From: Fischerella sp. CENA71
Lineage (GTDB): Bacteria; Cyanobacteriota; Cyanobacteriia; Cyanobacteriales; Nostocaceae
DNA length: 64,000 nt
Assembly: GCA_024239075.1 (NCBI GenBank)
Contig: JANBVI010000027.1
Location: 434,001 to 498,000, forward strand
Direction: 5' to 3'
The notes beneath the pieces were generated by a model. That model was not told where the DNA came from and did not search any database. It saw only the letters and a program-made list of their open reading frames with translations. Every line of letters starts with the position of its first letter. Positions within the stretch are counted from its first letter, which is position 1. Shown piece by piece: positions 3,582-6,148 of this stretch. The position numbers and the translations under genes are program-made.

Positions 3582-6148
3582 TTAATTGGGATTTTCTTCA
3601 GGCATCATACATTTATCTGAATCACAACCTGCCGGTCCAACTTCCATTAATTCACCGAAATCATAACTACTCAATGCTGTGTGAAAATCATGCGTTTTAC
3701 GACGTACTATGATTTCTTGCATAAGTTTATCGTACTGCTCCTTTGTAATTGGTTCAAAGGGCAAGCGTGGAAAAGTTTGATGATCGTCAAAGCGTGCTAA
3801 AAGAGCTGCACTTATATAACCTTCATCATCACGAATAGTTTCGTATATACGACTTCCCAAAGCTTCTATTTCTTGCTCTCGCAGTTCAATTGTAGCAGAT
3901 GTATTATGTGTCACATAATATTTCTGCACCTGCATATAGAAATCCATTTGAGATAAAGCGCTAAATTGACTAATGTCAACTTGATCAGCGCCTGGTAAAT
4001 CAGCCCAAGGAACAGCCACCGGAATTTCTACTAACCACTCACTAACTCTAGAATCAAAGGGGTCATTTAATAAATTCCCTTGTTCATCTTTGTCAGATTG
4101 AGAAGGTATGACATTGTAACCATAGTCAATACATGCTAAGGCTACTGGGTCATTTTTACGGAAAGTAATTCTACGAATGAATCTTTGGGCTTTGGGGGGG
4201 TGCCATCCTGGAGAAGCACTAGTCAACAAAGATTTTGTACCACTAGGTTGAACAGTGGTGCAACGATTTGGATGTTTAAGATTGTGCTTTGAGCAATAAT
4301 CCCAAACTACCCGATGCACAATCTCTTTCCACATACTCAAGTATTTTTCTTCTTCACGTTTAAACGCCAATCCTTGAGCAGTGTTTGGTCTTCCTTCAGT
4401 CCACCAATGTAACCAATCAATCCCAAAAGCATGAACAAAGAAATCAAATAAACCGGTGAAAGAAACACCAACAATCGGGTCAAGTTCACGACTATATTGA
4501 TAGCGTGGTTCTTGGAATTTGTGATGCAAAAGAGCGGCTACAGATAATGCACCTGCGGTGAAGGCCTCTTCCTGTTCTTTATAGTTAAATGGATCAATTT
4601 GATTAAGATGGATTTCTGATAAATTACAGTGGAAGTTAGCACCAATAATCTCCAGTTTTGTTATCCTAAAGGCTTTTTATCCTCTAGTTCTACAGGTTCT
4701 ATAATTCCCTGTAGCTCGGCATACATTTTCTACCATTTGGTAGCCAGGGACTCTTGGAGACATTATTGCTCTCTTAGCGCTCAGTCTCTATGCTCTACGG
4801 TGTCTGGTGATGTTCCAGATTACCACGGGATTGGCAGGTTCATTTGCTAATGATTCCTGTTCTCAGCCTTCCCCGTTTTTCCCCAGTTTTTTACGTGAGG
4901 CAAGTATTATTAAATACCACACGGATTTAGACCATATCTACCCAAACGATGTTCTAATTCTTGAGCATCAATATCTGGGTGATGTTCTTGTATCCATTCT
5001 TTGGCTTTTCCTTGCTCGTAAGCTTGCAAAAACTTAGTTTTCAATTCTGGTGTATTTAGCAAATCACAGTTAGCTCTAGCTACGGCTTCACCAGCCCATT
5101 GAATTGCACCTTCGCCACTGTAGTATTGTTTGCGAACAGCATCAACACATTCTTCTAATGTTGGCTTACGGTGAAAAACTCTGGTGTGGTTTGCCATTCG
5201 CAGTGAATCCCGTTCTGGATCAATACGCCAGTTGCCGTTTTCATCCTGTTGCCAAAGGTTTGCTTTCGCATCAGCAAACAAATGATCACTGCTATAACCT
5301 TGACGAATTCCCGCACTTCTTCTAATGTTACCTGCAACAATTGTGACAGCAGCTTCATCGATTAACAAACAGCATTCTACTGAATTTAATTGACGTCCGA
5401 TTGCTTTATTGAGGATGGAGGCACAGCGCTGATACAGTCCAGGCAGTTTTACAGGATTGGCAACTCCTCCAAAACCATTAAGAACTTCTCCGGCTTGACG
5501 CACATCACTGATATCAACTATTACTTGAACTTCTTGAGTAAATCTTTCATCTGTAGAGAGTTCCAGTAAACTCTGATATGATTGCACCCAGCCTTGACGA
5601 CTGTCTCCTACATGGATGATGACGCGGTTAGCATCTCTATCTATTTTGACTTCTGTCAATTCACGCCGTTCTAGACGGGGGGTAAAACCAATTTCTCCCT
5701 GTACAGTTACGTTTAAGCAATTACGAATTAGGGGCAATTGGTTGATATATTTTGGTTCTAAGATTGCTCCAGTACCACAGCCCATCATTGCCAAATCCAT
5801 CATCAAACCAAAAGCACTCCAGTCTTGGAGGTTAGTGGAAGTACAGTTGTAAGCCCCAGAAAAATTCTCTGGCTTGGCGATCCACTCTGTACCACCAACC
5901 CACAGCCAGCGCCCACTGGGTAAAGCTTTCAAGTTACGCTGCATCCGTTCGAGAATGTCAGCCTCTTGTGGTTGCAGTTTCCCTAAACTGATTAAACCTC
6001 CCAAGGTGCGATCGCACACCTGTTCCCATGTCTCCCTAGTTTGTGCCTCTCTACGACGGCTGTAAGTTCTAAAGAACACTGGGTTAGCAGCTGGGGCTGT
6101 TTCTGGAAAGTTTGCACTCTGGCGTTTTCGTTCAAGCTCTCGAACCAT
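3582..6148 (-). CDS. nrdJ: Class II (B12-dependent) ribonucleotide reductase, split by an intron
   Basis: Reduces ribonucleotides to deoxyribonucleotides using adenosylcobalamin. Two exons: 4916-6148 (411 codons) and 3582-4652 (356 codons plus stop), giving 767 aa after removal of 4653-4915. Exon 1 ends in NPCG; exon 2 opens with EIIGANFHCNLSEIHLN, so splicing restores NPCGE, which holds the catalytic Asn, thiyl-radical Cys (residue 410) and Glu (412). Without splicing, translation adds one Ile and stops. The C-terminal redox pair is C754-x4-C759 near the end, as in monomeric class II enzymes. No partner subunit gene is adjacent. No cobalamin riboswitch was recognised upstream. Confidence 0.93.
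4653..4915 (-). ncRNA. Group I intron in nrdJ (263 nt)
   Basis: Exon 1 ends in U (GTGGT) and the intron ends in G (AAAACTG), the group I rule. The last 8 exon bases CGTGTGGT pair with an internal guide GCCTCACG at 4894-4901 (7 of 8 pairs, with U.G at the splice site), forming P1. A candidate R element (AGAGACTGAG, 4781-4789 region) and S element (AAGAGTCCC, about 4746-4754) give a P7-like GACT/AGTC pairing. Two perfect hairpins follow: TACCA-AA-TGGTA, and CTACAGG/CCTGTAG near the 3' end. There is no internal protein gene, so it would depend on self-splicing or host factors. Confidence 0.9.

Follow-up and report, generated by a model that had tools for sequence, protein, structure and literature searches.

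Group I introns of the IA2 type are found in phages, of which Twort is an example. A group I intron with an insertion sequence (IS) element in the RIR gene of Nostoc punctiforme PCC 73102 was, to go by the title, reportedly described by Meng et al. in 2007 (J Bacteriol 189:2150). The kind of element analysed here is already known from that intron and from phage ribonucleotide reductase (RNR) introns and inteins: the accessible parts of PMC1995217 and PMC12702839 cite the Nostoc punctiforme case, so that group I introns in cyanobacterial nrd genes, assumed in an earlier note on the present DNA, are in print through citing papers, while the accessible parts of PMC3984707 mention cyanobacterial RNR introns and those of PMC3653736 name phage RNR genes as refuges of introns and inteins. 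We analysed a 64,000-nucleotide stretch of Fischerella sp. CENA71 (contig JANBVI010000027.1, positions 434,001 to 498,000 of the forward strand; hereafter the window), in which nrdJ, the gene for a class II RNR, is split by a 263-nt insert. The insert is very probably a splicing group I intron, one whose ancestor would have homed to this RNR codon with the help of an endonuclease since lost.

Like the Nostoc punctiforme RIR intron, the insert lies in a cyanobacterial RNR gene, but the 30 same-codon introns sized here measured 235-448 nt and held no IS-sized insert. IStrons (Tourasse 2014), as presented in the accessible part of PMC4227781, combine an IA2 ribozyme with an IS element 3' of P9.2, whereas the window copy has neither an IS element nor a transposase open reading frame (ORF). 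According to the same text, IA2 introns have extra P7.1/P7.2 helices between P7 and P3, plus P9.0/P9.1/P9.2; P7.1, P9.1 and P9.2 are present in the window copy, which looks like an intron of the phage-type subgroup IA. Phage introns of this type (in terminase and tape-measure genes of Sextaecvirus, and others in IMG/VR) share P9.1/P9.2 and the motif AACTA..GGATAAA.AGC and match the covariance model built here with up to 198 bits, but they occupy different host genes and several carry an endonuclease gene.

A ribonucleotide reductase gene split within its catalytic motif

nrdJ lies on the minus strand (6148-3582) and is interrupted at 4915-4653. When exons 6148-4916 and 4652-3582 were joined, a 767-amino-acid protein without interruption was obtained, with NPCGE as residues 408-412, the C and E of which we take to be catalytic residues of RNR. 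The protein is a class II, adenosylcobalamin-dependent RNR of the RTPR type (TIGR02505, 763.8 bits against a cut-off of 340.05; match to PDB 1l1l, an RTPR). The insert proved to lie exactly where it had been placed, in phase 0 between GGT (Gly411) and GAG (Glu412), and the predicted stop was borne out by read-through translation, which gave one residue (Ile) after NPCG and then terminated. Four further congeneric genomes were compared: three have an uninterrupted nrdJ, 93-94% identical, and represent exact empty sites, while the fourth (G003) carried an intron 98% identical to the window copy; the closest named NrdJ matches were from Pelatocladus and Fischerella, in a listing from which the strain's own record may be excluded.

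Searches of the host genome (99.9% complete, 95 contigs) revealed a single nrdJ and no class I RNR (PF02867 for the large subunit, PF00268 for the small) or class III RNR (PF13597), although PF02867 also misses the organism's own NrdJ. These results strengthened the earlier suggestion that the supply of deoxynucleotides (dNTPs) may rest on splicing, and the sequence supports a dependence of the gene product on the removal of the 263 nt. In the transcript, the 3' end of exon 1 would pair with a guide sequence in the intron (P1), and a guanosine held in P7 would attack the splice site at 4916/4915. In a second attack, the released exon would cut 3' of the terminal G (4653), so that ...CCG TGT GGT/GAG ATT... 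is joined and NPCGE restored, in what would be an autocatalytic reaction in the cell. Without splicing, the protein would end one residue past the catalytic Cys-Gly, in a genome where no other RNR was found.

An alternative is that the insertion is decayed or does not splice, being either similar to a miniature inverted-repeat transposable element or a dead intron, with nrdJ a pseudogene and dNTPs obtained from elsewhere. The stop one residue after the insertion point and the failure of RF00028 to recognise the element would be consistent with this. However, the two exons together make up 767 codons without a stop and remain close to the intact congener genes (93-94% identity), no other RNR was found, the window copy has all the core helices and G003 retains an almost identical intron, so that a dead insertion appears very unlikely. 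A rescue without RNA splicing, by frameshifting, read-through or a protein intein, is brought to mind by the inteins located six bases upstream (NP/C) in 13 of 79 classified genomes, but 263 nt is not divisible by three and the insert has stops in all three frames, which leaves this the most far-fetched of the explanations considered.

Group I identity and predicted structure of the insert

Some points tell against a group I assignment. A search of 4560-5000 with relaxed filtering gave no RF00028 match at E<=10, P1 carries an invariant U.U mismatch, and the structure described below was drawn from the very sequences scored. The covariance-model check thus failed, giving one of the two outcomes that the earlier note had set against an intron (the other being retention of the insert in cDNA). 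At gathering thresholds Rfam found no group I match anywhere in the window, its sole match at E<=10 being an Aspergillus small nucleolar RNA (E 7.9), and RF00028 at gathering matched none of seven other window-type loci, phage included (L003, L005, L011, L024, L376, L384, L385). RF00028 does find two introns above cut-off in the host genome, within tRNA-Arg(CCT) and tRNA-Ser(AGA) as called by ARAGORN -i, the latter in our view probably tRNA-Leu(UAA); a separate tRNA search tool found nothing at these matches. Thus group I introns detected by RF00028 reside in tRNA genes of the same genome, whereas the window intron is RF00028-negative and in a protein gene.

The miss seems to reflect a shortcoming of RF00028 itself, because two introns at the same codon in other genomes are recognised and because covariation is strong; the additional stem P7.1 between P7 and P3 may explain it. 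The two recognised introns, L066 and L067, are of another core type and scored 79.4 and 89.4 bits with RF00028, and 48.9 and 54.5 bits with a model from 12 window-type introns; an alignment that included them was poor, and they were left out of the covariance model. That current databases may overlook phage intron variants is noted in the accessible part of PMC11878797.

The window intron had blastn matches in 28 of 100 genomes, the host's among them, and in each of these copies the intron starts immediately 3' of the GGT of NPCG and has G as its last base. Across their alignment, the helices P1-P3-P4-P5-P6-P6a-P7-P7.1-P8-P9.1-P9.2 were paired in 96.9% of 1678 cells, with two-sided changes in 35 of the 60 pairs and a covariation score of 0.466 against 0.156 when shuffled. 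Sliding the helices by 1-3 columns lowered pairing to 32-42%, a control that is biased towards the structure, since this was derived from the scored sequences. P3 was paired in 99.5% of cases, with two-sided changes in six of its seven pairs. P7 pairing was complete throughout the 28 copies, with changes on both sides at two of the five positions (AU14/CG14 and CG12/GC11/AU5), and the first G of its 5' strand presumably forms the guanosine-binding pair with C at 4719.

All core helices, including the P3/P7 pseudoknot, are present in the window copy, which scored 205.6 bits with the model built here (the copy itself being in the training set). Its minimum-energy fold, which cannot represent the pseudoknot, had a z of -3.08, with none of 200 shuffles as good. 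The elements of the earlier note were recovered, namely P1 (CGTGTGGT with GCCTCACG at 4894-4901; its splice-site U.G recurs in 28/28), the terminal G, and the P7-like elements, to which P7.1 has been added, as well as its description of a compact copy without a long ORF. Taken with L066 and L067, the covariation of the 28 same-codon copies confirmed the 263-nt insert, at the level of sequence, as a group I intron. The predicted parts are collected below; 13 bases separate P9.2 from the 3' splice site.

Coordinates of nrdJ and of the predicted intron elements in the window
Feature	Position	Strand	Remarks
nrdJ exon 1	4916..6148	-	codons 1-411; 3' end ...AAT CCG TGT GGT
nrdJ exon 2	3582..4652	-	codons 412-767 + stop; 5' start GAG ATT ATT GGT
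Intron (group I) of 263 nt, lacking a long ORF	4653..4915	-	phase 0; own covariance model and covariation
P1 5' strand in exon, CGUGUGGU	4916..4923	-	U.G at 5' splice site
Internal guide sequence (P1 3' strand), GCCUCACG	4894..4901	-	alignment
Probable P10 strand, CUU	4902..4904	-	partner: 3' exon GAG at 4652-4650
P3 5' strand	4880..4886	-	pairs with 4750-4744
P3 3' strand	4744..4750	-	covariation alignment
P4 5' strand	4871..4876	-	pairs with 4830-4825
P4 3' strand	4825..4830	-	covariation alignment
P5 5' strand	4866..4868	-	pairs with 4835-4833; AA/AA between P5 and P4
P5 3' strand	4833..4835	-	covariation alignment
P6 and P6a	4799..4824	-	P6 4824-4822/4801-4799; P6a 4818-4815/4807-4804
P7 5' strand, GCAUA	4789..4793	-	pairs with 4723-4719; pseudoknot with P3
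P7 3' strand, UAUGC	4719..4723	-	covariation alignment
P7.1, additional stem between P7 and P3	4757..4788	-	4788-4784 with 4761-4757
P8 hairpin	4730..4743	-	4743-4739 with 4734-4730; loop bears endonuclease gene in some other cyanobacteria
P9.1 hairpin	4690..4714	-	4714-4708 with 4696-4690; two helices 97.3% and 88.1% paired
P9.2 hairpin	4666..4687	-	4687-4681 with 4672-4666
Terminal G of intron	4653	-	G in 28/28 same-type copies

Pairing of the exon with the guide and constrained codons

The 5' exon reads CCG TGT GGT in all 28 window-type copies, but in just six of 36 element-free genes, 7/79 named intronless loci and 2/79 uninterrupted virus loci (79 being 80 minus one locus without readable codons, L135 among the named and one among the virus loci). 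Comparison of all intron genes with empty ones gave 28/30 versus 6/36 (Fisher 1e-10, rows related). Third-base variation was analysed from codon -15 to codon +10. At codons -3, -2 and -1 the entropy was 0 in the 28 intron genes as against 1.93, 1.00 and 1.67 bits in the 36 empty genes, whereas it was similar in the two sets at -4 (1.00 vs 0.92) and +1 (0.75 vs 0.76). Among 10 independent pairs based on starred branches, the exon variant followed the intron in a mean of 6.7, opposed it in 0 and tied in 3.3 (median p 0.0156). P1 itself was 87.1% paired in the 28 copies with no two-sided change, and since it is nearly invariant there, support for it is drawn from elsewhere, from co-change of exon and guide and from codon freezing. 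A compensated P1 is found in the phage-like locus L383, with exon AAUUGUGGU and guide GCCUCAAUU, and in L066 and L067 exon and guide have also changed together.

The freezing could instead arise from endonuclease recognition, insertion preference or co-conversion, and some observations count against P1 pairing as its cause. The third base of the Cys codon forms a U.U mismatch in P1 that is invariant in 28/28 copies although it is no standard pair, and this frozen position is not explicable by pairing alone. Codons outside P1 also vary less in intron genes, at -5 (0.81 vs 1.65) and at -12 (0 vs 0.59), so that some co-conversion or relatedness may contribute, and CCGTGTGGT is seldom seen at empty sites (the 6/36 and 7/79 named loci above). 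On the other side, zero entropy next to the insertion is confined to the three P1 codons, with -4 and +1 unchanged, and exon and guide change together in L383 and L066/L067. We therefore consider a cause other than P1 pairing doubtful, though it is the least unlikely of the rival explanations.

Beyond the splice site, the GAG or GAA codon that opens the 3' exon probably tends to match CUU or UUU upstream of the guide, as a P10 pairing would predict: CUU accompanies GAG in 5/7 rows and UUU accompanies GAG in 1/21 (Fisher 0.001, counted by eye, rows related).

Distribution, endonucleases and phage-like counterparts

nrdJ was found in 81 of the 100 genomes, of which 30 carried an intron at the same codon (28 of the window type, plus L066 and L067), 13 an intein at NP/C and 36 neither. 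Two were unclassified and left out of the trees, G017 with no break seen at the site and G046 with a partial gene; L029 and L030 are second matches of genes already counted, and L064 and L082 are one gene, so that 37 rows stand for the 36 element-free genes. The comparison of insertion sites advised in the earlier note thus showed the codon occupied in 30/81 nrdJ-bearing genomes, and the site is filled in distantly related hosts but vacant in near relatives, as expected of a homing intron. On a codon tree of 57 rows and 1383 columns (an earlier protein tree of 152 columns was unresolved, with 2/76 starred branches), intron presence changes 15 times, 10 of these changes being forced by starred branches. 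Of 388 genomes drawn from across the class, 42 matched the model, and the nrdJ exon CCGTGTGGT preceded the guide in 19 of the 25 loci fetched first (L433-L457). Tandem repeats or long inserts were observed in the P5, P7.1 or P9.1 loops of the endonuclease-less nrdJ introns L010, L024 and L027.

Vertical inheritance within the cyanobacteria with frequent loss, involving neither recent mobility nor a link to phages, would account for part of this pattern. Intron and exon distances are correlated (Mantel r 0.43, 0/2000 permutations as high), and the two copies from the window's genus are sisters on the nrdJ tree. Many pairs, however, disagree both ways, some having introns much closer than their exons (0.055 vs 0.278), for which structural constraint on the RNA may be partly responsible, and others the opposite (intron 0.332 vs exon 0.152, within one starred clade). 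Furthermore, endonuclease genes are present in some copies, and the phage-like intron L376 is up to 87% identical to relatives' copies while the NrdJ of its contig is just 59% identical to that of the window. Purely vertical descent is thus unlikely. The reading of the window copy as the descendant of a homing intron must nevertheless be set against four observations: intron presence is slightly clustered on the tree (15 changes against a shuffled mean of 17.6, with 48/500 shuffles as low); the patchy distribution could be due to loss alone; no trace of an endonuclease can be recognised in the window intron, whose tail in frame 0 (VELEDKKPLG) falls within the RNA-conserved P9.2; and among the eight virus contigs with an insert at this codon a terminase was identified by phrog_2 in two only (behind L380 and L381).

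Inteins share the same active-site stretch, six nt upstream at NP/C and eight codons further on at FH/C, but are excised from protein and not from RNA. An intein-like start at FH/C was present in all four intron genes checked (L078, L079, L080, L085), while an NP/C intein and the intron occurred together in none of the 79 genes (hypergeometric 0.001, rows related). A strict exclusion of the two was considered and is contradicted by the 151-kb contig G107 (L383, and L474 at G107:122000-131000), in which a 127-residue intein-like stretch at NP/C (Pfam Intein_splicing 31.3 bits, below the cut-off of 35.8) is followed by Cys-Gly and then by an intron of 896 nt that holds a GIY-YIG gene. The two inserts are six bases apart, and the guide matches the intein codons.

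Same-codon introns of other cyanobacteria were compared for endonucleases in 11 fetched regions (L460-L470; the 3' exon of L463 was not found). Six introns of 1166-1181 nt (L460, L461, L462, L464, L465, L468) contain an ORF, 311 or 324 residues long, that begins in the P8 loop (L8) and, in all but L464, crosses P9.2 and stops in the conserved GGATAAC. A profile of four aligned L8 proteins matched T7 endonuclease I (1m0d, 6.2e-5), and Pfam Phage_endo_I and NUMOD3 gave sub-cut-off matches in two of them; the L8 proteins of L460-L468 and L470 may represent a family of homing endonucleases based on T7 endonuclease I, to which a portion resembling NUMOD3 and a segment rich in Cys are joined. Other copies show decay, with an early stop in the ORF of L466, a broken ORF in the 748 nt of L467, short remnants of the same protein in the 506 nt of L470 and no long ORF in the 479 nt of L469. 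The window copy has no endonuclease gene of its own and nothing of one left in its P8 loop. We infer that an ancestral homing intron at this codon, found in phage-like contigs also, gave rise to the window copy by loss of its endonuclease, and any direction assigned to transfer between phage and host is likewise inferred.

The P9.2 motif occurs in at least 120 IMG/VR stretches. A model search of 70 sources, which included 55 (L256-L310) of 80 P9.2-motif loci, returned 94 matches at E<=0.01, and the named phage relatives adjoin tape-measure, DNA polymerase and terminase genes. By blastn, window positions 4656-4832 (query 84-260) are 79% identical to the intron of Staphylococcus phage vB_SpsS-DH5 (OM373549), while full-length copies of relatives, the congener's excepted, are 68-69% identical and shorter stretches of relatives' copies up to 97%, hinting that the middle part of the window intron is recombinant.

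A search with the P1 motif found seven contigs, all seven at the ...NPCG of an RNR-like frame, and relaxing the exon codons returned the same seven. In total, eight IMG/VR contigs have an insert at this codon, five of which are supported as group I by a model. L376 matched our own model with 195.6 bits and L377 matched RF00028 (60.3 bits); L381, at 92.4 and 80.1 bits, was recognised by both, while L382 was weak in both (34.1 and 40.2 bits, the latter below gathering) and L378, L379 and L380 had no model match. The downstream exon (E.QPL) resumes after 176 (L378), 185 (L379) and 668 (L380) bases; within 2500 bases (1951 for L377) no downstream exon was found for L377 and L382. The 176- and 185-base inserts stand behind the same guide at NPCG/E and, if they are such, would be very small group I introns.

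L376, on the 199.8-kb contig G100, is a 249-nt intron in an RTPR-type nrdJ, and its identity of up to 87% with relatives' copies is over aligned bases. An HNH endonuclease gene is located immediately upstream of this split nrdJ (L376 4245-4793), outside the intron, and homing in trans is possible. G107 has head and neck-like genes; in G100 one protein has a PHROG of unknown function as its best match, and this contig could be a plasmid-like element.

Related introns were also observed in other genes. In 11 of the 100 genomes (L419-L429; e.g. L425 1452-1622) a related group I intron (model R1) splits the gene for the RNA ligase RtcB in the vicinity of GSLGGG/NHF, with a LAGLIDADG-like ORF downstream in L421, L423, L425 and L427 and an intein-like end upstream in L424; Pfam supports RtcB for the L426 pieces and LAGLIDADG_3 for an L425 piece. 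The intron model further matches the tRNA introns L430 and L431, each preceded by an ORF that, we presume, resembles the endonuclease I-Ssp6803I.

In searches of mostly open-licence literature no report was found of an nrdJ codon shared by phages and cyanobacteria, of the L8 endonuclease or of the intein-intron neighbours, nor, in open-licence literature, of a T7 endonuclease I-type homing endonuclease with a group I intron, for which a single review on genome editing came up. What is added here is the patchy distribution, the 5' exon frozen over P1, the intein neighbours, the virus inserts at the same codon and the kinship of the L8 endonuclease. A broader proposal, on which we are evenly divided, is that the NPCG/E codon in genes for the large subunit of RNR serves as a common homing site. 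Different group I cores (IA-like and RF00028-type) with a near-identical guide would pass from phages to cyanobacteria or back by means of various endonucleases, one of them T7 endonuclease I-based, and would compete with an intein that targets a point six bases upstream. One phage-like contig would hold the two elements side by side, with the guide of the intron recast to fit the codons of the intein.

For the study of how selfish elements share a target, this one codon offers a series in which the endonuclease is complete, broken or gone, together with a phage counterpart and intein-intron neighbours. In the bacterial genes that we examined, introns of this phage type escape RF00028, so that annotation may take genes of this sort for broken ones. 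In Fischerella sp. CENA71 the sole detected source of deoxynucleotides would rely on a ribozyme at the codon pair of the catalytic motif, whereas close kin manage without the intron; with the only detected RNR split and intron-free close kin at hand, one could test what a self-splicing intron costs, how it is regulated and how it is lost.

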